A stretch of DNA of 22,438 nt, from IMG/VR virus record IMGVR_UViG_3300038429_000788, positions 1 to 22,438 of that record; one strand, 5' to 3'. Numbering within the stretch: position 1 is the first letter of the stretch; every line of letters starts with the position of its first letter. This stretch comes from a virus. A program made the position numbers and the translations under genes. The notes below the pieces were generated by a model. That model saw nothing but the letters and a program-made list of their open reading frames with translations. It was not told the origin of the DNA and searched no databases. Positions 2,776 to 21,028 of this stretch are shown here, piece by piece.

Positions 2776-3596
2776 GTCCTAAAGGATTGATCTTTGAAAC
2801 TTTGTCTCAGGTGTAATAGCGGTCCACCTGAAGAGGCTGCAAATGGCCCGAGAAAACGAATCCCACTTGGGAAAGGATGGAAACAGGGTCCCCTGGCTGA
2901 CAAGCAGGTAGGGCGCCTAACCGGAAAATGGCAATTTTAGATTATTGCTTACAAAAAGAATCAAAATTCCACAAAAGTAATGCTTACCATTTGAAATCGT
3001 TAATGAATAATTTTAATAAAAAAAATTGCCTCAATATCTGCCCCTGCACACTTGTTTTGTAAGAAAACGTAAAAGCGCCGGATTACTTTACAGATTTTGA
3101 ACAAAGTTGTAACTACCTCATAATTGTCGCGTAGTAGCTAAAAAGCCTCAATTCTGCCTGTTGGAAGTGTCGGCTTTATTTACAAACGATTGCTTCTTCA
3201 TACTTCTCAAAGGATATAAATCAAATAATATCAATATATTATGCTTTTGGCATAGTATATGCGTTAAAATAGCCCAGAAGGGGACGTTTGCCATTTTCTA
3301 TGAATGTTCATATTCCTTAAGATATCATTTATTTATCTGTTTTCGCTTACTGTGATCTCAGCCTTTCAGTTCTCAGGTGCTCCTGAAGGTAGTTCTTCTG
3401 TGTAGTAGGTCATGTTTTTCGACCCGGCATAGAATGAAGAATGATGGAAGCGCCTCATTGTATGTCTAACCCAAAACCCCTCTTAGAATAATCTAATTGT
3501 ATTACCCTGATTTGTGCAATGCGAGGGGTCGAGTCCTATTTTTCTTGGATTGAGCTCGCAAAAACTTGTTTAAAGTCTGAGAAAGGAGAGGGGTAC
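2776..3596. other. Long AT-rich gap without a convincing gene
   Basis: About 820 bases separate the phage-type block from the PEP-CTERM gene. I see one hairpin, TCAGGTG paired with CACCTGA (2807-2831), without a run of T after it. From about 2940 the DNA is clearly more AT-rich than the phage genes on its left. A 64-codon frame at 3161-3355 has no binding site and a composition rich in Phe, Ile, Cys and Ser typical of noncoding AT-rich DNA. A promoter for the PEP-CTERM gene is probably near 3480-3590, but no good consensus pair is visible. The segment may mark a junction between modules. Confidence 0.5.
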
Positions 3597-4352
3597 ATGA
3601 AAAAATCAGTCTTAAATGTCTTCATATTTTTGTTTCTTATCTTTACCGGTAATGTCATTGCGGCACCAATTCCCGTAGAAGTTATAAGCAGTAGTTTTCA
3701 TGCCTGGGGTGACTATGACGTGGACTATTTCATAGGTGTCAGTCCTGATCCACCATACTTGCTCTATGGGAATGCGAGTGATAGTTATAATAACGCAGGG
3801 ACGACACCTCAAAGCGGGAACATTTCTTTTTATTACGATCCTTACGACGAGGCATATGCTAGCAGTAGTGCACATCTATTCACTGCATCAGCTAGTACTG
3901 ATGCACGCGATGAGAGTAGTCATGCCAACGCCCGTGCCCAAGTTGACGCGACATTCAGGCCATTAAACAATTTTAATACTCTTGATTTCTCGTGGAGCAA
4001 TAGCGGTTCGCGCTGGTATTTAGTTAGTGGGTCCCTGGTTGACTTGACTGATAACGTAGTAATATGGAATGTACTAGCGGGAATGTGGATTTTGGCCGGG
4101 ACACCGCCTGGAGGCGTAGAAGACTTCAAGGCAGAATATGGATTCGCCGCAGTCGTTCCAATTAATTATGCTTTTGAGTCTGATCATGTATACAGTATGG
4201 ATCTTTTTGCATGGTCAAACGCTAATTGGGACGGAACAACTGTATCCTTTGGTTTTCCAGATTTAGTAACCGCCCCAGAACCAACCACCATGCTTCTTCT
4301 TGGTCTTGGTCTAGTTGGATTGGCAGGATTGAGGAGAAAGTTTAAACAGTAG
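3597..4352 (+). CDS. PEP-CTERM sorting-signal exoprotein
   Basis: The 251-residue product has an N-terminal signal peptide (MKKSVLNVFIFLFLIFTGNVIAA) and ends with a textbook PEP-CTERM signal: PEP at about residues 227-229, a hydrophobic helix LLLGLGLVGLAGL, and a basic tail RRKFKQ. Such proteins are exported and then recognised by an exosortase (EpsH-type) in Gram-negative bacteria, usually linked to exopolysaccharide and biofilm formation. The domain between is Ser/Tyr/Asp-rich and beta-like and I do not recognise it. The start at 3597 was chosen over an upstream ATG (3519) because GAAAGGAG lies eight bases before it and the signal peptide starts there. A strong terminator follows at 4379. 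It is an odd gene for a phage and may be host DNA or cargo. Confidence 0.85.
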   Translation: MKKSVLNVFIFLFLIFTGNVIAAPIPVEVISSSFHAWGDYDVDYFIGVSPDPPYLLYGNASDSYNNAGTTPQSGNISFYYDPYDEAYASSSAHLFTASASTDARDESSHANARAQVDATFRPLNNFNTLDFSWSNSGSRWYLVSGSLVDLTDNVVIWNVLAGMWILAGTPPGGVEDFKAEYGFAAVVPINYAFESDHVYSMDLFAWSNANWDGTTVSFGFPDLVTAPEPTTMLLLGLGLVGLAGLRRKFKQ

Positions 4353-4412: not shown

Positions 4413-4491
4413 TGGTACGATTAATGTTTACTGATCGTACTATTGAACTTAATGCAGATATTGGATTTTGTGGTCCTCACTCAGGGGTTAT

Positions 4492-4511
4492 TTCTTTGGC
4501 TTCTTCTCTTG
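4492..4511 (-). repeat. Direct repeat, copy 1, matching the 3' end of the RHH gene
   Basis: The 20 bases here are identical except for one base to 5196-5215, which is the 3' end of the ribbon-helix-helix gene on the minus strand. Read on the minus strand this copy encodes RQEKKPKK then a stop, as the real gene encodes KQEKKPKK. The frame is continuous, after the stop at 4584, with the one-TM gene. The two copies bracket that gene. Confidence 0.7.
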
Positions 4512-4583
4512 TCTAACTTTCTGATCTGGCTCTTTGAGAACTGAAAAGTTATCCCGACGATGGTTCTCCCGTTTTAATAGCCT

Positions 4584-5195
4584 TTATTCTTTATCGACGA
4601 TAGATTCTATGAGGATTGGTGCATCCTTGTAGTTAGGATACTCATACGTTACACTTGTTTTGAACCGCTTTTTTTCATCAATTTTAGAGGAATAAAAGAA
4701 AGGCATTTTCAAGCTGAATAAAATAGGCGTTACAATAGCTACTTCTCTTTTTTCTGGGGTTATTGTATCTTCTTCACCTCTTTTCATTCCAACTCTCAAC
4801 AAGAAAGTTATTATCTTTTCCTCTCCAGGTTGTAATGATATTTCTGGCAATGGTTTTATGATTGGCTTTTGATCATCACCACCTAGGGCAATATCTTTTG
4901 ATTCCAGTACGTATCCTTTTGTATGTATATTTAGTGCTGGCGTTCTACCAACGTTTGATATTTTAAAATATCCTGTAAGGTGCATTAGTGCTTTATCACC
5001 CCAAGAAAAATCTATGAAAGAATCCGTCTTCGGATTTTTAATAGGCTGAAGGGTTAAGTAAGGCCGATTGATATCTAAATGGTTATTGTTGCTTACCTGA
5101 CATGATTTTATTGCAACAATTAAAGCAATGCCGGAAATGACTATTGAAGAAATTCTAATTAGCCGGTCATATAACAATTCTTTTGAAGCATTCAT
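4584..5195 (-). CDS. Single-pass membrane protein of unknown function
   Basis: The 203-residue protein has one N-terminal transmembrane helix (about residues 14-30, RISSIVISGIALIVAI) followed by a cysteine and a soluble domain that should face the periplasm. After the helix comes DINRPYLTL, a short motif common in small membrane proteins of unknown function. The rest looks like a beta-sandwich, with segments such as FKISNVGRTPALNI and LQPGEEKIITFLLRVG. No catalytic motif is visible. Its ATG overlaps the stop of the upstream ribbon-helix-helix gene by four bases, so the two are translationally coupled. After the stop the frame stays open for 31 codons and ends in a copy of the partner gene's C-terminal coding sequence. 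The unit runs opposite to the integrase-side genes. Confidence 0.7.
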   Translation of the reverse strand: MNASKELLYDRLIRISSIVISGIALIVAIKSCQVSNNNHLDINRPYLTLQPIKNPKTDSFIDFSWGDKALMHLTGYFKISNVGRTPALNIHTKGYVLESKDIALGGDDQKPIIKPLPEISLQPGEEKIITFLLRVGMKRGEEDTITPEKREVAIVTPILFSLKMPFFYSSKIDEKKRFKTSVTYEYPNYKDAPILIESIVDKE

Positions 5196-5597: not shown

Positions 5598-6266
5598 ATG
5601 AAGAAAGACAGAAAAAAAGACTTAGACACACTCATTGAGAAACACAGGAAGAAGGAGAAGGTGAAGAAAGGCGCGGGGACAATCGACCTGTCAAGGTTAG
5701 GCATTCTGAAAAGTGCCATAGAGAATTATGCGAATGAAGAAACAATTGAATCACAGAACGGGGTCACCTACAAGCACATGGACAAACTCAAATTTGCGTA
5801 TGACATGGAAAAAAAATATAGTTCAATAACCGAAGTGACACAGTTACCATTTGTGAGAGATTACACAAAAGAGGAAAAGAAGACAGGGCGTATAGGCCGG
5901 AATTTCTGGAGCGTGAAGCCTACCGGGGATTATCTTACAGACTGTGAAACGGGGCATGAATACGCCGCCTATGCCTATGCTTATATGCAGAACGGACGTA
6001 TGAATGTTTTGGCTCAAATTGTTTTTGACATTATGCAACACGGCGACGCGGAACGTGACAAGGGTTTGATAGTGGGGTTTTTTTATTCTATCTATTCATT
6101 CCTTATGGGTAGCGGAGGCGTCGGTTATATGCTGTTCAACCGGGAGATCAGCAAAACAAAAATGAATGTTCTTTTACACAATGAACGGGTGAAAAAGGAA
6201 AGCAAGAAACTCCCCCTTGTATGGAATTACCCGAAAAGTGCGGAAGGGGAAACAGGCAGAAAGTGA
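5598..6266 (+). CDS. Hypothetical protein upstream of the integrase
   Basis: The 222-residue product is not recognised. The first 30 residues are very basic (MKKDRKKDLDTLIEKHRKKEKVKKG); the middle is mixed and polar; residues about 156-180 form a hydrophobic stretch (GLIVGFFYSIYSFLMGSGGVGYMLF) that could be a membrane helix; the C-terminus is again basic. The ATG at 5598 was chosen because GAAAGGAG lies seven bases before it. A frame open from 5478 would add 40 residues encoded by a folded, terminator-like segment and is unlikely. The stop lies ten bases before the chosen integrase start, so the two are probably one transcript. It could be a regulator or accessory factor of the element; nothing proves this. 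Confidence 0.65.
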   Translation: MKKDRKKDLDTLIEKHRKKEKVKKGAGTIDLSRLGILKSAIENYANEETIESQNGVTYKHMDKLKFAYDMEKKYSSITEVTQLPFVRDYTKEEKKTGRIGRNFWSVKPTGDYLTDCETGHEYAAYAYAYMQNGRMNVLAQIVFDIMQHGDAERDKGLIVGFFYSIYSFLMGSGGVGYMLFNREISKTKMNVLLHNERVKKESKKLPLVWNYPKSAEGETGRK

Positions 6267-6276
6267 GGGCTTAAAA

Positions 6277-7446
6277 ATGGCAGTTAGAAAACGTGGTAGC
6301 ACCTGGCAGATTGATTATATCGATCCATCAGGGAAGAGAATCCGCAAGGCCTTCAAGTTGAAGAAGGATGCGACTGATGAATACGCAAAGCGGATTTCGT
6401 TGATCGGTGAAAAGCGTTATCTGGATGTAAAGAAAGAATGCGTAACGACCTTCGGTGAGCTTTTGCAGAAATATGAAGACAATTTTCAGCATCAGCGGGG
6501 CTTCAAGGGTTCAAAGAAATTTTGCCTGAAAAACTTTAAGGAACATTTCAAGAGCGAAACGATTCTGGCAAATATTCGATATGTAGATATTGAAACCTAC
6601 AAAAACCATCTGAGGCAGAAACGGACCGTCAAAGATACGATCCGGAAGGATGCTTCGATCAACAGAGAACTTTCCTGTCTTCGCAATCTGTTCACAAAAG
6701 CTGTTGAATGGGAAATGATAGAACAGAATCCGTTTAAAAAAGGGAAGTCTCTTCTTGAAAAAGAAAACAATACCCGGGTTCGTTTTTTGACTGAGGAAGA
6801 AATTCCACTACTCTTGGGATCATGCTCCCCTCACCTTCGGGATATTGTTGTCTGTGCCTTGAACACAGGGATGAGACGCGGGGAAATTCTGAACCTCCGA
6901 TGGGACCAAGTCAGGAATGGTTTTATCTATCTGCAGAAAACGAAAACCAACACATCCCGGCAGATCCCCGTCAACAATGATTTAGGCGAGCTTTTCAAGA
7001 GGATCAGCAAAGCGCAAAAGGTCGGGGCAGAGTACGTCTTCACATTCACCCGTAATGCAAAAAAGAAAAAGATAGGCGCTCTTGTGTTAATAAATTCAGA
7101 ACAGGGGAACAGAATAAACAGCGTGAAAGTGTCCTTCGCCGCTGCATTGAGACGGTCTGGAATCAAAGATTTTCGCTTCCATGACCTGAGACACACCTTC
7201 GCAAGTCATTTCGTTATGAGGGGCGGTACACTTAAAGACCTGCAGGAGATACTCGGACACACGACTATGACCATGACATTGAGATATGCACATCTGAGCC
7301 AGGATCACAAAAAGAAAGCGGTTAATCTCCTGAATGGACTAACCGCTCTCGATAACAAGGCCGTGGAAGATGGCATGTCACAAAATGTCACAAAACCCGA
7401 TTTTGACCCATCTTGTGAAACTCACCAATCTGCTAACTGCCTATAA
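6277..7446 (+). CDS. int: Tyrosine recombinase, phage-type integrase
   Basis: The 389-residue protein has the full tyrosine-recombinase signature: Arg I (R200 in TGMRRGE), the beta-hairpin lysine (K223 in KTKTNTSR), the H-x-x-R box (H302 and R305 in FHDLRHTFASH), the second histidine (H328 in ILGHTTM) and the nucleophile Y337 in RYAHL. N-terminal to this are an arm-binding-like region (residues 1-50, MAVRKRGSTWQIDYID) and a SAM-like core-binding domain (about 60-160). It would integrate and excise the element at an attachment site; a tRNA-Lys 3' fragment lies four bases after the stop, as is usual for such integrases. The start at 6277 has GTGAGGG upstream and fits the family N-terminus better than an upstream ATG at 6217 that overlaps the previous gene. 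Confidence 0.93.
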   Translation: MAVRKRGSTWQIDYIDPSGKRIRKAFKLKKDATDEYAKRISLIGEKRYLDVKKECVTTFGELLQKYEDNFQHQRGFKGSKKFCLKNFKEHFKSETILANIRYVDIETYKNHLRQKRTVKDTIRKDASINRELSCLRNLFTKAVEWEMIEQNPFKKGKSLLEKENNTRVRFLTEEEIPLLLGSCSPHLRDIVVCALNTGMRRGEILNLRWDQVRNGFIYLQKTKTNTSRQIPVNNDLGELFKRISKAQKVGAEYVFTFTRNAKKKKIGALVLINSEQGNRINSVKVSFAAALRRSGIKDFRFHDLRHTFASHFVMRGGTLKDLQEILGHTTMTMTLRYAHLSQDHKKKAVNLLNGLTALDNKAVEDGMSQNVTKPDFDPSCETHQSANCL

Positions 7447-7450
7447 TTAC

Positions 7451-7496
7451 TGGTGAGCCCTGCCGGGATCGAACCGGCAACCTACTGATTAAGAGT
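7451..7496 (-). pseudogene. 3' fragment of tRNA-Lys(CUU): integrase attachment site
   Basis: Read on the minus strand, these 46 bases are the 3' part of a tRNA-Lys gene: the anticodon loop and 3' anticodon stem (ACTCTTAATCAGT, anticodon CTT), the T-arm (GCCGG-TTCGATC-CCGGC), the 3' acceptor strand AGGGCTC, discriminator A and an encoded CCA. Beyond 7496 the sequence does not continue as a tRNA 5' half. Integrases of this type use tRNA 3' ends as att sites, and the fragment begins four bases after the integrase stop, so this is very probably the crossover region. Phage-type genes occur on both sides, which is the layout of attP or of a junction between tandem elements. Confidence 0.88.
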
Positions 7497-14717: not shown

Positions 14718-16654
14718 TAACCGCCGCCGCCCAAATTATAGCCGCCCCACCGCTCGAGGTCTTCACCTTCACGCCCGGCGAGCGCCGGGTCTTCAAGAAA
14801 AAGGAGAAGATCACGGTCTCAGAATGGGCGGAGAGATATCGGATCATCACTGATGGGCCCATGCCCGGGTTATGGCGTAATGACGTCACGCCCTATTCCA
14901 TCGGCCCCATGAACTGTTTCAATATCCCGTACATCCGGAAGGTGTTGCTTTGCTGGCCGCCGCAGACGTCGAAGACGCAGGTCGGATTCAATTGGCTGGG
15001 ATATGCGATGGAGCATGAGGCCATGTCGGTTATGTATATCATGCCGGACGAAAAACTTACAAAGCGCATCAGCAAGCGTCGCATCAGGCCGATGTTCAGG
15101 CAATCGCCGCGCCTGGCAGCAATCCTCAGTCATTGGAAAGACGATGTGACAGCTCTGTCCATTAATTGCATCAACGGCGCTGATCTGATGATGGTCTGGG
15201 CGACGTCGGCAGCGGAACTCAGTTCGGAGTCGGTGCCGGTTGTCATCGAGGACGAACGCGACAAGTACCCTGATTTTTCCGGTAAGGAAGCAGACCCCAA
15301 GGCGCTGGGTGAAATCCGGACGACGGCTTATCCGCATACATCAAAAATACTGGAGATGTCCACGCCGGTTTTGGAGACAGGGATAGTTGCCGACATCGAA
15401 GACGAGGCCGATCTGATTTATCATTACGGCGCTCGTTGCCCCATATGCTCTGAATATCAAAAAATGGAATTCGACAGTATTACATGGCCGAAGGATAAGC
15501 GGGATCCCCGGGAAATGAAAAGAATGAAGCTGGCGCATTATCAGTGCGCCGCATGCGGCATGCACTGGGATGATTACATGAGAAATAAGGCCGTGCGCGA
15601 CGGCCTGACGAATCCCGCTGCCTTTTATGGTTGGCTGCCGGACCGCGAGGTCGAGCGTCCGGAGGTCGTTGCCTTCCATCTATCATCCTGGTATTCGCCG
15701 TTCGTCTCGTTATCCACCGTCGCCGCGGCATTTCTCAGGGGACAGGATGATCCGAAAAAGCTCATGGTCTTCGTCACCCAGCACAAGGCCGAGGCCTGGA
15801 GAGAAACGATCATCCCGAAAAAGGAAAGCGGCGTTCTCGAGCATAAGACGGATATCCCCGCGGGAATCGTGCCCGCCTGGGCCGTTGCTCTCACCTGCGG
15901 GATCGATGTGCAGAAAAACGGATTCTGGTTTGTCGTCCGCGCATGGGACGCGGAGTTGAACAACAATCTCGTGCAATATGGCTATCTCACGACCTTTGCG
16001 GACGTGGAGGCACTGCTCTTCAATACACACTACCAGATTCAGAATTCTGAAGAGACCATGGGGATCTGGCGGGCGGGAATTGACACCGGCGGCGGCGATA
16101 CGGAAAGCAATGAATGGACGCGCACGGAGGAAATTTACCAGTGGCTGAGAAAGACCCAGCCCGGCAGAGTCTTTGGGACGAAAGGCGCCACACATACCCG
16201 CGGAATGCAGTTCAAACGGATCAAATTGAGCCGGATTGATGCCCTTCCCCGCTCTAATAAGCCCATTCCCGGCGGATTGGAGCTCCGCCTGCTCGACACG
16301 TCGCAATATAAGGCGCTCATTCATTGGCGCATGGAACGCAAAGAGGGCGAGTCTCAGCGCTTCTATCTCCATGCCGACACCGGCGTTGATTACGTGAAAC
16401 AGCTCCTCGCCGAGGAACTTGCACGGGACCGCAAGGGCAAAAGATACTGGAAGCAGACGAGCCGTGACAATCATCTTCTTGATTGCGAGGTAATAGCCGC
16501 CGCCTGCGCGGACAGCGAATGGTTGCCGTCATTGAAGATGCTGGCGACTCACCTGCAGCAGAGGAAGGCGAGGAAGGAAGAAGGCACTGAAAAACCGAAG
16601 GCGATGACGTCAAACTGGATGCATAAAGGCCCTGGTAGTTGGAAGATTAAATAA
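14714..16654 (+). CDS. Terminase large subunit (GpA family)
   Basis: The 646-residue protein is the packaging motor and nuclease. The ATPase part has a deviant Walker A, WPPQTSKT (K87), as is usual in GpA-type terminases, and an acidic Walker B-like segment VVIEDERDKYPD (176-187), followed by the coupling-like TAYPHTSKILEMSTP. A cysteine cluster (CPICSEYQ, about 243, and CAACGMHW, about 277) fits a zinc-binding insertion of the family. The nuclease domain starts at about 395 with CGIDVQKNGFW (D398) and ends with DCEVIAAACAD. Length and order match lambda gpA (641 residues). It is coupled to the small subunit by a four-base overlap, and its stop overlaps the next gene by one base. Confidence 0.95.
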   Translation: MITAAAQIIAAPPLEVFTFTPGERRVFKKKEKITVSEWAERYRIITDGPMPGLWRNDVTPYSIGPMNCFNIPYIRKVLLCWPPQTSKTQVGFNWLGYAMEHEAMSVMYIMPDEKLTKRISKRRIRPMFRQSPRLAAILSHWKDDVTALSINCINGADLMMVWATSAAELSSESVPVVIEDERDKYPDFSGKEADPKALGEIRTTAYPHTSKILEMSTPVLETGIVADIEDEADLIYHYGARCPICSEYQKMEFDSITWPKDKRDPREMKRMKLAHYQCAACGMHWDDYMRNKAVRDGLTNPAAFYGWLPDREVERPEVVAFHLSSWYSPFVSLSTVAAAFLRGQDDPKKLMVFVTQHKAEAWRETIIPKKESGVLEHKTDIPAGIVPAWAVALTCGIDVQKNGFWFVVRAWDAELNNNLVQYGYLTTFADVEALLFNTHYQIQNSEETMGIWRAGIDTGGGDTESNEWTRTEEIYQWLRKTQPGRVFGTKGATHTRGMQFKRIKLSRIDALPRSNKPIPGGLELRLLDTSQYKALIHWRMERKEGESQRFYLHADTGVDYVKQLLAEELARDRKGKRYWKQTSRDNHLLDCEVIAAACADSEWLPSLKMLATHLQQRKARKEEGTEKPKAMTSNWMHKGPGSWKIK

Positions 16655-16890
16655 TGAGCGGACAGATCAAAAGAATTCTCACGTCAAAGCAAGCCATAAT
16701 GGATCACATTACCGACGTCAGCGGCGAGACGTGCACGGAATATATGTTCAGAAAATATGTCAAGCGCGGCATGCCGGCGCGTTACGAAGATAATCGATGG
16801 CTCGCGCATGTGGAAAATATCGACGCCTGGTTTAAGAAATACACATGCGTAACGATGCAGGGACAAATGGATCAGATAGAAGCCGAATGA
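16654..16890 (+). CDS. Small winged-helix-like protein after the terminase
   Basis: The 78-residue protein begins on the last base of the terminase stop codon. It has the sequence pattern of a small MerR/excisionase-like winged helix: a first helix SKQAIMDHITDVSG, then a helix TEYMFRKYVKRGMPAR and a wing DNRWLAHVENIDAWFKKY, in which an invariant-type turn and a strand ending in the dipeptide NI before the last helix resemble phage head-proximal DNA-binding proteins. In lambda-like phages the position after gpA is taken by gpW, a head-completion protein; this sequence is not recognisably gpW. It is the last gene with a clear phage character before the cargo region. Function is unproven. Confidence 0.65.
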   Translation: MSGQIKRILTSKQAIMDHITDVSGETCTEYMFRKYVKRGMPARYEDNRWLAHVENIDAWFKKYTCVTMQGQMDQIEAE

Positions 16891-17067: not shown

Positions 17068-18648
17068 ATGTCGTCAGTGTTAAACTCGGCTGAAATGGGT
17101 ATGCTATTGAACCTTGTAGAAGAAGCAGCGCGGTCCACGAAAGAAGGGGTGAAACATTTCGTTGAGCCAGCCCCTGGCACCCTCCAACGATCGACGAGTA
17201 AAAGGCATCACATTGTATTCGGCAGGCGCGGGTCTGGGAAGTCGAGCCTCTTGCACAAAGCGGCGGCGGATTTGACCATCGATCGACGCCCCATTGCCCA
17301 CGTCAATTTAGAGGCGTTTAAGGGTCACAGTTACCCAGACGTCTTGTTAAGTGTCCTTATTGCAAGCTTCACAGGATTCAAGAAATGGATGGATTCAGCA
17401 GCTGTCCATCCGTCCACGCGTACATCATTCTGGAATAAATTATTTGGGACGGCCCCCAAGCGCCCCTCTTTCAACCACAGAGAGGCCTCTGAACTATCTG
17501 CGGCACTGGGTAAGCAGATTGACGCCCTCACGCAAGAACTTCACAGAACTGACGAGTCAGATCTGACCGTGCGGGCCGGATTAGAGGCCAATGAGAAAGA
17601 TTCGGCTGGGCTAAAGAGCAAAATTGGCGGAGGTGGCGTATCCGTTGAAGCCAATGCTGCATTCGAAGTCAGTCAAAAGCACAAAGAGGAAATTGAAGAA
17701 AAATTCAAAAGACAGAAGATCGAATTCTTACTTCGGCACATTATGGAATATCAGAGTCTGTTTCTTCGCCTTGGCGAGTTGTCAGATGGTGACGCTTACC
17801 TATTTCTAGACGACCTCTACCATATTCGGCGTATAGATCAACCGCGGGTAATGGACTATTTTCACCGGCTTGCAAAAGATCACAATCTGTGGCTCAAGAT
17901 TGGGACGATCCGGCATAGAACACGTTGGTATTTACACGGAGACCCTCCAATCGGAATGAAACTCGGCGATGACGCAGACGAGGTTGATCTTGATCTCACT
18001 TTGGAGAAGTATTCTCTTGCGAAGGAATTCCTTTCAAAAATCCTAAATAGCTTTGCCTCCGAGGCAGGTGTGTCGCCTCTTAAATCGTGTCTTACAGATG
18101 GTGCACAGGATAGGCTTGTACTGGCAAGCGGGGGTGTCGCAAGAGACTTTCTCTCAATATTTAGGCGATCAGTAAATGTTGCACGTGAGAGACGAGGAGG
18201 GCATAGAGGCGAGAAAGTGGGTGTCGAGGATGTGAATATGGCAGCAGGTGAATATGATTCTTCAAAGAGGGAAGAATTCAAGAGAGATACTCTAGACGAT
18301 GGGGTCAACTTGGAAAGTGAATTTCACAAACTCCGTGACTTTTGTTTATATAAAAATACTAACTGTTTCCTCTTAGACAAAGAAGAAAGCGGCCCCGAGG
18401 TGGATTTAATCCACGAGCTTGTTGATCTCAAGCTGATCCATTTGGTGAGGTCAAGAGTAACCGTAAGTGGTCGTGCCGGGAAAATATACGAGGCATACAT
18501 GCTCGATTTGAGTCAGTATTCTGGTGCACGTAAGCGAAGAGAACTGAGAATCGTGGAGTTTTGGAAACCATCCTCTCAAGAGGCACTTCGTAAAAAATCA
18601 CTGATCTACTCCGCATGTACTTCTGCGGCATCCTGGCATCAAACCTGA
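17068..18648 (+). CDS. P-loop ATPase with coiled-coil insertion, cargo candidate
   Basis: The 526-residue protein has Walker A GRRGSGKS (52-59) and Walker B YLFLDD (244-249), with DLYH following, and the sequence LKIGTIRHRTRWY at the next strand (a sensor-like position). Between the two Walker motifs lies an unusual insertion (about 120-225) of mostly charged helix, including a GGGG hinge. The C-terminal third (about 410-500) reads like winged-helix modules (VDLIHELVDLKLIHLVRS). This is the general look of AAA/STAND-type ATPases found in accessory and defence regions, but I know no named system for it. AAGGAGGG lies eight bases before the start. Its position directly after terminase, where a portal gene is expected, marks it as cargo. 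No nuclease domain is visible in it. Confidence 0.8.
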   Translation: MSSVLNSAEMGMLLNLVEEAARSTKEGVKHFVEPAPGTLQRSTSKRHHIVFGRRGSGKSSLLHKAAADLTIDRRPIAHVNLEAFKGHSYPDVLLSVLIASFTGFKKWMDSAAVHPSTRTSFWNKLFGTAPKRPSFNHREASELSAALGKQIDALTQELHRTDESDLTVRAGLEANEKDSAGLKSKIGGGGVSVEANAAFEVSQKHKEEIEEKFKRQKIEFLLRHIMEYQSLFLRLGELSDGDAYLFLDDLYHIRRIDQPRVMDYFHRLAKDHNLWLKIGTIRHRTRWYLHGDPPIGMKLGDDADEVDLDLTLEKYSLAKEFLSKILNSFASEAGVSPLKSCLTDGAQDRLVLASGGVARDFLSIFRRSVNVARERRGGHRGEKVGVEDVNMAAGEYDSSKREEFKRDTLDDGVNLESEFHKLRDFCLYKNTNCFLLDKEESGPEVDLIHELVDLKLIHLVRSRVTVSGRAGKIYEAYMLDLSQYSGARKRRELRIVEFWKPSSQEALRKKSLIYSACTSAASWHQT

Positions 18649-18970: not shown

Positions 18971-19627
18971 ATGAAATTGGATAGGCCCCAGACTAATGTT
19001 TCGGTTGTGGCGCGTCAATTCAATCCGTCAATCATCACACAACACTGGCTCATAAAGAATGGAATACTTTTAGAACCGGATTTCAATCCTGAGTGCGTGT
19101 TCTCTCCTGTTGTAGCAGACGTCAGGACTAAGGAATTCAATTTCATTGTCGTGCCAGAGAGGTTGCAATTTATCCCTAATGTTGATGATACCGACGCTGA
19201 GTGTCGTATAATAGTATCAAAGGTTGGGAGAATAATTGAACTGTTGCCCGAGACCCCTTTCGTTGCAGTTGGCATGAACTTCCTGTGGTTCATAGATCTG
19301 GAGTCTGAGCCGCAAACCAGAATAAGCCGAAAGCTGTTTTTCAGAGACGGTTCTAATCTCTACAAAAAATTCGATGCTGAGGATGCGCAGTTCGGCGCTT
19401 ACATGAGCAAGGAAGTTATTGGCTGCCGTTTACGCTTAAACATAAAACCAGTTATCTTGACTATCGAGAATGAGCAAAGCCCTAGACTACAGTTTTCATT
19501 CAATTTTCATCTTGATCTTCCGAATGATGAAAAGGTTTCGGCTATCAAGGATTTCTTACCGAATTGGATAAAGGCGAAAACATTGACACGCGAAATCGCG
19601 GAATGTGCTATTCAGGAGGCAATGTGA
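18971..19627 (+). CDS. Uncharacterised protein A of the three-gene HEPN unit
   Basis: I do not recognise this 218-residue protein. It looks like a compact alpha/beta domain: successive predicted strands (FSPVVADVRTKEFNFIVVP, RLQFIPN, PFVAVGMNFLWFIDL) and a strand-rich C-terminal half (GCRLRLNIKPVILTIEN, LQFSFNFHLDLP), closing with a helix (TREIAECAIQEAM). There is no signal peptide, membrane helix, nucleotide-binding loop or obvious metal-ligand cluster. The ATG has only a weak site (AGAAAG) upstream. The stop codon overlaps the next start by one base (TGATG), so it is coupled to protein B. The strand pattern resembles proteins that accompany toxins or restriction-like systems, but this is only an impression. 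Antitoxin, sensor or structural partner roles are all possible. Confidence 0.75.
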   Translation: MKLDRPQTNVSVVARQFNPSIITQHWLIKNGILLEPDFNPECVFSPVVADVRTKEFNFIVVPERLQFIPNVDDTDAECRIIVSKVGRIIELLPETPFVAVGMNFLWFIDLESEPQTRISRKLFFRDGSNLYKKFDAEDAQFGAYMSKEVIGCRLRLNIKPVILTIENEQSPRLQFSFNFHLDLPNDEKVSAIKDFLPNWIKAKTLTREIAECAIQEAM

Positions 19628-20310
19628 TGGAATCGAGCGAGACCCTTCTTCAATGGAAACTAAGCGATCCCCTTACTCTGCTGGACGCTTTCTCAATTGC
19701 AAAGATTGGTGAGACAAAGACGCGCATATCTACACGAAGCCTAGTCCCGGACATGATTTTGCATGAATCAGCAAACACTGCCACCTTCCGCATCGTCGAG
19801 TGGTTTGACTTTACAAAAGAGAAGAATGTAGACGACACTGTTTTAAGAAGCCTCAAAGCGTTTGTTTTGACAAAGATACCGACCAATTCCGCAAGAGCAT
19901 TTATGCATTCATTTGTTGGTCATCCAGCTTATGAATCATGGGCGTCGCTCAAGAAAGATGAAATTGATGAATTGAGAGATATTGCAATAAGAAGTCTCTA
20001 TGATAGCATGGATATTGGGGTTGAACTTTCTGGCGAAGTGCTCAGGTTCAGCTATCAATACAAGCTGATGGAGCATATCAAAACTTCAGCTGACCTGATA
20101 AGACGATGTTTTACTTCTCATGAAGAAATTTCAGCGGAATTGATGGAAGACACAGAAACCGATGAGATATGGGTTGTCCTCAATATCTTTGTCAGAGGTG
20201 AAACTAATCAAATACTAGACATGTATGACGAGTATACGAGAGAATGGATAGCCAAAGTCCCTTGGCCAGCATGTTCCAGAGTAAGAATCTCGTACTATCC
20301 CGTTGAATGA
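19627..20310 (+). CDS. Uncharacterised protein B of the three-gene HEPN unit
   Basis: The 227-residue product is not recognised by name. The ATG at 19627 shares its A with the stop of protein A and has CAGGAGG six bases upstream; a frame open from 19564 would overlap protein A and is not supported. The N-terminal half mixes helices and strands (LTLLDAFSIAKIG, ATFRIVEWFDFTKE); the middle is helical (DELRDIAIRSLYDSMDIG); the C-terminus (DEIWVVLNIFVRGETNQILDMYDEYTREWIAKVPWPACSRVRISY) has a strand, a helix and a closing strand, a pattern I associate with uncharacterised proteins found beside HEPN genes. No nucleotidyltransferase GSxxxG motif is present, so this is not the usual MNT partner. Start and stop are tightly coupled to both neighbours. 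Confidence 0.75.
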   Translation: MESSETLLQWKLSDPLTLLDAFSIAKIGETKTRISTRSLVPDMILHESANTATFRIVEWFDFTKEKNVDDTVLRSLKAFVLTKIPTNSARAFMHSFVGHPAYESWASLKKDEIDELRDIAIRSLYDSMDIGVELSGEVLRFSYQYKLMEHIKTSADLIRRCFTSHEEISAELMEDTETDEIWVVLNIFVRGETNQILDMYDEYTREWIAKVPWPACSRVRISYYPVE

Positions 20311-20311
20311 A

Positions 20312-20764
20312 ATGGACCCACGCGATTTCCAACTGGTAGCGGCTAAACTGGCGTTGAGCAAGACACCCGCCGAGTTCAGATCATCAATTAGCCGTGCCTA
20401 CTACGCAGCTCTTCACGTCAGTGCTGAAATCCTCAATGACATCGGCATACCTGTAGAAAAGGGCATACGCTGTCATCAGTCTGTCATCACTTGTCTACAC
20501 AATAGCAAGGACGAAGAGCTTGCAAAGATCGGCTCACAATTGGACGATGTTAGAAGTGATAGACTCAAAGCAGATTATCACTTGGATGATAGGAAGATTG
20601 CTACGCCAGAAAAAGCGAAGGCAACTGTCTCTCAGACTAGCAGAATGATAGCTATTTTGGATTCCTGTAAGAGTGGAAACCCAGAGCGCAAGAAGAAGCT
20701 TAGACAAAGCATCAAAGAATATCAGAATAAAATACAGCCACTTCAAAGTAACAGGTCCCTTTAA
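20312..20764 (+). CDS. HEPN-domain protein, UPF0332-like
   Basis: The 150-residue protein matches the UPF0332/HEPN pattern: FRSSISRAYYAALH (residues 22-35), in which the SRAYYA box is the family hallmark, a histidine H55 at the start of the next helix (GIRCHQSVI), and R84-x5-H90 in DRLKADYHLDD, equivalent to the R-x4-6-H motif of HEPN ribonucleases and to the R-x2-ADY motif of UPF0332. Many HEPN proteins are RNases of toxin-antitoxin, abortive-infection or CRISPR systems; others are non-catalytic, so activity is not assured. The ATG at 20312 follows the stop of protein B by one base; a TTG at 20303 would add three residues and overlap it. No binding site is evident, so translation probably depends on coupling. 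The C-terminal 40 residues are basic. Confidence 0.82.
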   Translation: MDPRDFQLVAAKLALSKTPAEFRSSISRAYYAALHVSAEILNDIGIPVEKGIRCHQSVITCLHNSKDEELAKIGSQLDDVRSDRLKADYHLDDRKIATPEKAKATVSQTSRMIAILDSCKSGNPERKKKLRQSIKEYQNKIQPLQSNRSL

Positions 20765-20884
20765 CATTTTGTTGGCACCCAAGAAAGTCAAAAGGTCATA
20801 ATAGAGCCTCTCAATCAGCAAGTTACTGTATGAGACAGGAGACACCAAAATCTTCGTTTCAATCCGATTTGATATTTTAATAAT

Positions 20885-20970
20885 CGGTGCGTGGTGGAAC
20901 TGGTAGACACACCGACCTGCGAAGTCGGGGAGGGTTTTCCCTCGTGTGGGTTCGAATCCCACCGCAAAAG
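20885..20970 (+). tRNA. tRNA-Leu-type (class II) tRNA-like sequence with GCG anticodon and defective acceptor stem
   Basis: The sequence folds as a class II tRNA: TG (20892-20893), a leucine-type D-arm GTGGAACTGGTAGACAC, an anticodon stem CCGAC/GTCGG (20912-20928) with loop CTGCGAA, a long variable arm GGAGGG-TTTT-CCCTC, and a perfect T-arm GTGGG-TTCGAAT-CCCAC (20946-20962). The anticodon would be GCG, which reads arginine CGC, not leucine. The acceptor strands CGGTGCG and CGCAAAA pair at only four of seven positions, and no CCA follows. It is therefore either a decayed or recombined tRNA, or a specialised phage tRNA-like RNA. The T-arm and D-arm are too well preserved for chance. Confidence 0.65.
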
Positions 20971-21000
20971 CATTTCACATGAGCATGGGATGTTTTTGCG
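20963..21000 (+). other. Long hairpin competing with the tRNA-like acceptor end
   Basis: CGCAAAAGCAT (20963-20973) pairs with ATGTTTTTGCG (20990-21000) over 11 positions, including one G-T, around a 16-base loop. The left arm is exactly the 3' acceptor strand of the tRNA-like sequence. No run of T follows, so it is not a clear terminator. Confidence 0.6.
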
Positions 21001-21028
21001 AGGAGATTGGACTTGCTACCGGCGATAA

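Follow-up and report, generated by a model that had tools for sequence, protein, structure and literature searches.

A phage tRNA-like sequence with a leucine-type body, the anticodon GCG and a broken acceptor, and intact cellular tRNAs of the same design

Close to the right end of a virus record lies a sequence with the body of a leucine tRNA and GCG, an anticodon for arginine codons, in its anticodon loop. Is this a working tRNA, an attachment site, the remains of a tRNA picked up with other genes, or an RNA kept for a purpose outside translation? The window, by which we mean the whole stretch of DNA analysed here, is a virus record of 22,438 nt that begins with the codon ATG and ends with a stop codon, as in records trimmed at gene borders, and its G+C content lies between 0.35 and 0.56 in 1-kb steps. 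Elsewhere it holds a gene for a PEP-CTERM protein (3519-4352; PF07589, E 1.5e-7) and one for an N6/N4 DNA methylase (PF01555) fused to a ParB N-terminal domain (PF02195; 12411-13712). Here, we describe the tRNA-like sequence and the hairpin behind it, then turn to intact cellular tRNAs of the same design and to the surroundings of the phage sequence, and finally weigh the explanations against each other. The coordinates of the relevant features are collected in Table 1.

Table 1. Features of the window around the tRNA-like sequence and the integrase gene.
Feature	Position	Strand	Basis
3' half of a tRNA gene (anticodon loop to CCA), likely attP core	7451..7495	-	directly behind the integrase stop; read from sequence
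ATPase, ORC-CDC6-like	17068..18648	+	Pfam PF24389, E 5.3e-7, 29.2 bits against a cut-off of 27; weak PADLOC mad8 match, E 2.6e-5
HEPN-like ORF, 153 aa, motif RLKADYH	20303..20764	+	phrog_5176, E 5.9e-16, function unknown; weaker family matches
Class II (Leu-bodied) tRNA-like, anticodon GCG, four-pair acceptor	20885..20969	+	Rfam tRNA, 40 bits at 20888-20966; 17/20 pairs
Acceptor 5' strand CGGUGCG	20885-20891	+	pairing starts only at 20888
D arm	20894-20910	+	read from sequence
Anticodon arm	20912-20928	+	read from sequence
Anticodon GCG	20919-20921	+	inside loop CUGCGAA, 20917-20923
Long variable arm GAGGG-UUUU-CCCUC	20929..20945	+	sequence and Rfam alignment
T arm	20946-20962	+	read from sequence
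Acceptor 3' strand CGCAAAA	20963-20969	+	read from sequence
15-pair hairpin, loop of 8, CGCA in common with acceptor 3' strand	20963..21000	+	fold of 20884-21006, G-U allowed

The first-pass annotation had described a leucine-type tRNA-like RNA with the anticodon GCG, in which the D, anticodon, long variable and T arms are intact, only four acceptor pairs form and CCA is absent, and this description is borne out in every part. The covariance-model check that it had proposed gives a match to the Rfam tRNA family (RF00005) at 40.0 bits (E 1.9e-5), where 29 would reach the gathering score; the match covers positions 4-67 of the 71 in the model, and no other Rfam family matched the sequence. Stem pairs form at 17 of 20 places (acceptor 4/7, D 3/3, anticodon 5/5, T 5/5), and the variable-arm stem GAGGG/CCCUC, counted by eye, pairs at 5/5. 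All mismatches fall on the three outermost acceptor pairs, C1-A72, G2-A71 and G3-A70, where AAAAGC occupies the position of the matching acceptor strand. Among the features of a tRNA-Leu, the long variable arm and a Leu-type D arm are accompanied by G at position 73 in place of the A73 discriminator. The sequence passes the Rfam threshold, lacks the seven-pair acceptor of a functional tRNA and is rejected by ARAGORN, which called 0 tRNA genes in the window; in five intact cellular tRNAs taken for comparison, the match spans the full model at 54.7-58.4 bits. The fold energy of the 89 nt from 20884 to 20972 is no better than that of shuffled sequences (z -0.19; 88/200 shuffles as good or better), so that the case for a tRNA-like is made by sequence and structure and not by energy. 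With the outer acceptor pairs, A73 and CCA gone, charging is not expected and the RNA should not feed the ribosome. A twin contig (L002, IMGVR_UViG_3300018005_000072) is 99.97% identical over 7136 nt and 100% identical over 141 nt around the tRNA-like, which disfavours an assembly slip and is too close to inform on conservation.

The acceptor had also been thought switchable, its 3' strand pairing instead in an 11-pair hairpin immediately downstream. The hairpin is real, but it is longer, with 15 pairs and a loop of 8: the segment 20964-21003 folds at -16.2 kcal/mol (z -5.4), a value equalled by 0/200 shuffles, and in the window it is the sole perfect stem of at least 13 pairs (+ strand, loops of 3-12, G-U allowed), while a stem of at least 15 pairs was contained in 1/40 dinucleotide shuffles of the window. 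Because CGCA forms both the first four letters of the hairpin and the stretch of the acceptor 3' strand that pairs, the acceptor and the lower hairpin are mutually exclusive, and to this extent the proposed competition stands; an even switch does not, as 15 hairpin pairs are set against 4 acceptor pairs, and a four-letter chance overlap is enough to explain the competition. Close to the 5' foot of the stem stands AAAA and close to the 3' foot UUUUU, a layout known from terminators with A- and U-tracts that pair, and the core is G+C-poor. We favour reading the hairpin as a weak terminator-like element of A-tract, stem and U-tract, sharing its four letters with the acceptor by chance, that may act in termination; a scan of intrinsic terminators accepted 0 sites, the U run falling inside a stem that is not G+C-rich.

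The anticodon GCG had been regarded as foreign to class II tRNAs and thereby as a sign of something irregular, a view that intact cellular tRNAs contradict. In a genome collection that comprises 84,980 species by its description, a pattern joining a Leu D arm to an Arg-type loop (CTNCGAA) was found at 12 loci, 7 of which are ARAGORN tRNAs at that place and 5 of which are not. Six of these seven tRNAs have GCG and come from five Gemmatimonadota genomes; the seventh has CCG and comes from a Chloroflexi genome. With a looser pattern, 90 of 395 Gemmatimonadota genomes matched; a reversed control pattern matched genomes as well, so that the loose-pattern matches are largely noise. The pattern GGTAGACRC-N6-CTGCGAA occurs in 11 Gemmatimonadota genomes, and ARAGORN confirms a GCG tRNA in 10 of them (11 genes) and not in G349. 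Intact Leu-bodied GCG tRNAs are thus confirmed in 10/395 Gemmatimonadota genomes, five of the ten being the seed genomes of the pattern; three further Gemmatimonadota pattern matches were examined, and none is a tRNA. The related pattern GGTAGACRC-N6-CTSCGAA was found in 1/301 Chloroflexota genomes (the seed G007, with CCG) and 0/299 Pseudomonadota genomes. The Gemmatimonadota GCG loci, some of which are the same gene listed twice, carry the labels L015, L018, L020, L022, L023, L024, L062-L066 and L071-L076, and the Chloroflexi locus with its Leu-bodied CCG tRNA the labels L021/L077.

Intact Leu-bodied GCG tRNAs therefore exist, and a GCG anticodon on a class II body is for this reason no safe sign of decay. 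Among 11 distinct cellular sequences (10 GCG and 1 CCG, with G383 left out because it duplicates G017), 219 of 220 pairs form, A73 is present in 11/11, and the pair types of the anticodon stem vary at all five positions. Intact pairing built from differing pair types makes the Leu-bodied GCG tRNAs appear selected, as far as their sequences tell. By pattern, allowing one mismatch, eight of the ten GCG genomes also show a class I tRNA-Arg(ACG), which was not seen in G002 and G383. A narrow literature search found no description of Leu-bodied GCG tRNAs of Gemmatimonadota, including the available portions of PMC8629427 (without the word stem 'gemmatimon') and PMC8450103.

The phage tRNA-like and the Gemmatimonadota GCG tRNAs have the Leu D arm and the loop CUGCGAA in common. 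In a local search of 15 chosen genomes, the best match of the phage sequence is the GCG tRNA of G017 (75%, query positions 6-82, E 2.3e-8) and the second that of G002 (E 5.2e-6), the other matches listed spanning at most 34 nt; the best of these local matches is helped by the common anticodon loop. Aligned globally, the phage sequence is equally close to the best GCG tRNA (64/80 aligned positions) and to a normal tRNA-Leu(caa) (64/77). Descent of the phage sequence from the cellular GCG tRNAs is thus possible, favoured by the local search and level with tRNA-Leu in the global alignment. Among viral contigs, a pattern search for the Leu-bodied GCG design found it in this virus only. Another viral search matched 13 contigs, the 12 others being without an ARAGORN tRNA and without a tRNA around the match, and when ten viral loci were searched with Rfam, only that of the twin contig (L005) reached a gathering score, for tRNA. 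In a phage collection the tRNA-like had one match, in which 53% of the query aligned at 74.7% with a tRNA-Leu from a Mycobacterium phage, and a plasmid search gave none.

A recombined or decayed tRNA used as an att site was one of the roles first suggested. Recombination or decay is supported, the loss being limited to the outer acceptor, position 73 and CCA; the att-site part is not. Directly next to the integrase gene of the window (6217-7446) lies the 3' half of another tRNA gene, and attP cores usually take just this form. The anticodon of this half reads Lys CUU, an isotype that differs from that of the tRNA-like, and its nearest matches among phages (81.5%, covering 76% of the query) are Proteus phage sequences annotated as tRNA-Met or unannotated; Rfam called no tRNA at 7451-7495. 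No 13-mer of the tRNA-like recurs elsewhere in the window, whose record may be incomplete, and no convincing direct repeat involving it was found there. Given the other tRNA half behind the integrase and the lack of a repeat or second copy, and considering also its position among late genes, the tRNA-like is probably not the att site of this phage's integrase. A host among the Gemmatimonadota, considered as well, was unsupported by searches with the tRNA half and with the large terminase subunit TerL. The tRNA-half pattern (at most 3 mismatches) was found in 7/390 Gemmatimonadota genomes, in all at 3 mismatches, two matches reading CAT, four CTT without CCA and one (G181) CTT with CCA; the TerL of the window matched in 14/390 genomes at E 1e-20 or better, with a best identity of 31%.

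The twin contig extends beyond the right end of the window and there encodes a head-tail joining protein (phrog_5774, E 5e-31) followed by the start of a portal gene (phrog_21, E 4.6e-26). In a related contig (L009), the genes for the head-tail joining protein and the portal come after terL with no more than a 70-aa gene and a gap of 132 nt (4464-4597) in between; the 70-aa gene product is 40% identical over 63 positions to that of the window ORF 16654-16890, and the head-tail proteins are 44% identical. As only this small gene and gap separate terL from the head-tail gene in L009, the part of the window from about 16,890 to its right end is cargo. It holds, in order, the ATPase, two ORFs, the HEPN-like gene, the tRNA-like and an ORF with a coiled coil; the head-tail and portal genes come next in the twin contig. 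The two ORFs between the ATPase and the HEPN-like ORF have no Pfam, PHROGs or PADLOC match at E 0.01, the coiled-coil ORF has weak family matches only, and relatives of the ATPase were found among viral contigs in the twin contig only. In other related phages the slot is filled differently: contig L008 (5653-7115) has a SocA/Panacea-like gene (E 4.6e-5, 24.7 bits, below Pfam's 25.7) and a 239-aa ORF between terL and the portal, and contig L006 (10425-12716), which stops before any portal, has an AAA_13 protein (E 8.7e-30) after terL. Judged from these gene orders, the post-terL slot is a variable cargo site with differing defence- or toxin-antitoxin-like genes in related phages. Three closely spaced ORFs of the window (18971-20764; 218, 229 and 153 aa), the last of them HEPN-like, may form a toxin-antitoxin or defence operon.

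The tRNA-like sits 120 nt behind the HEPN-like gene on the same strand. The motif RLKADYH of this ORF fits Rx4-6H, the definition of the HEPN RNase motif in the accessible part of PMC3710099, and its relative in contig L003 keeps RVKADYHLDD. A structure model made without an alignment is all-helical and poor (mean pLDDT 59.8), and the ORF has no match to a Pfam HEPN family and no solved relative by sequence. That relative, the only other one found among viral contigs, has no tRNA match in the 6590 nt covered. A link between the HEPN-like protein and the tRNA-like, which the first-pass annotation had itself called speculative, is possible, with proximity as the sole evidence.

We consider it somewhat better than even, at roughly 55%, that the tRNA-like is a dead or dying passenger copy of a Leu-bodied tRNA with the arginine anticodon GCG, truncated in its acceptor and uncharged. 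It lies in the variable cargo slot that, in this integrase-bearing phage, comes after terL and before the head-tail and portal genes; its body is still able to pair, and its three outer acceptor pairs, A73 and CCA are lost. This relic reading accords with failures limited to the outer acceptor, with G73 set against A73 in 11/11 cellular tRNAs, with the position in the cargo slot and with the rejection by ARAGORN. Random decay, however, should also damage the arms, and here the 17 inner pairs are intact and one end only is hit, which looks like a clean truncation or as if the body had been selected. In its anticodon loop, CUGCGAA, the phage sequence is moreover identical to the intact cellular GCG tRNAs. 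A neutral and a selected state would look alike in two contigs this close to each other. The confinement of the damage to the charging end is what makes a functional mimic attractive, in which the body would be kept without its acceptor and bound or cut, outside translation, by a tRNA-targeting enzyme (the phage HEPN-like protein or a host anticodon nuclease) as a bait, a sensor or an antitoxin RNA. The HEPN-like gene immediately upstream suits this idea, as does the related phage with an AAA_13 protein after terL, a family that includes the PrrC anticodon nucleases. Irregular soil and peat tRNAs have also been suggested to accompany transposons or toxin-antitoxin systems (PMC7609411, in the part available). 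Against it stand the HEPN-like relative in L003 with no tRNA match nearby and the putative nature of the nuclease activity and its target, the poor model and the lack of a Pfam HEPN match, and we regard a mimic as rather unlikely.

If the relic is instead that of an ordinary tRNA-Leu, which came in together with the cargo block and is decaying at random, GCG would be one of its mutations and unrelated to the cellular GCG tRNAs. The global alignment (64/77 against 64/80) leaves room for this, but the best local match in the 15 genomes is a GCG tRNA, even if helped by the common loop, and to reach the phage loop from any Leu loop in the 30 rows listed takes at least 3 substitutions, all leaving a well-formed Arg-type loop; we hold this origin to be unlikely. 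A recombination scar, left where an earlier element or the cargo block once used the tRNA for attachment and a crossover swapped the acceptor, would explain why the damage is limited to the end that tRNA-directed integrases exchange. Neither outer strand resembles a Leu acceptor, however (C1, A72), a second copy and a convincing direct repeat were not found, no integrase match was seen among the cargo ORFs scanned and the phage integrase adjoins another tRNA half, all of which makes such a scar very unlikely. That the phage tRNA works after all, for missense, codon support or tRNA-dependent lysogeny, its acceptor completed by editing, is hardly to be expected with three mismatched acceptor pairs, no A73 and no CCA, even though lysogeny can require phage tRNAs (available part of PMC10865867).

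With allo-tRNAs and the irregular soil and peat tRNAs the phage tRNA-like has in common a class II body with a non-matching anticodon; GCG is among the commonest anticodons of the Ser-type allo-tRNAs of the 8/4 kind (Mukai et al. 2017, as told in the part of PMC7609411 available), and the same part puts on record a broken copy that overlaps a transposon-related gene. Unlike the allo-tRNAs, which are of Ser type with 8/4 or 9/3 branches, the phage tRNA-like is Leu-bodied, and the pairs left in it agree with a 7/5 frame, in which the T stem has five pairs, the acceptor itself being broken. The Gemmatimonadota GCG tRNAs are like it in the D arm GGTAGACRC, the loop CUGCGAA, the long variable arm and the lack of an encoded CCA in the sequences examined, a likeness by sequence only, and differ in their full seven-pair acceptors, their A73 and their place in bacterial genomes. 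Phage-encoded tRNAs, for which nuclease-insensitive copies (PMC10264068) and tRNA-dependent lysogeny (PMC10865867) are described in the available parts of two papers, compare in that a tRNA-like gene is found in an integrase-bearing phage; the present one, by contrast, is not chargeable as read and is mismatched in isotype with the attP-like tRNA half. An RNA of the YrlA kind was also considered and rejected, as Rfam gives tRNA only and no Ro/TROVE match was seen among 20 ORFs scanned with Pfam. Bacterial Y RNAs such as YrlA have tRNA-like domains in which a tRNA body is joined to another stem, and the phage tRNA body is likewise joined to another stem.

A bolder combination can be imagined, in which bacteria keep a dedicated Leu-bodied tRNA for the arginine codons CGC/CGU, for deliberate leucine or for a role outside translation, and the phage carries an acceptor-less mimic of it, for example as bait for a tRNA-cutting HEPN enzyme; we think this quite unlikely. 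The phage tRNA-like alone is probably a relic, and the fully paired cellular Leu-bodied tRNAs with an arginine anticodon are the more important and more surprising part of what was found. The leucyl-tRNA synthetase LeuRS of Escherichia coli does not read the anticodon. If charged by LeuRS, the Leu-bodied GCG tRNAs would place leucine at arginine codons, and the reason for keeping such a gene is directly testable.
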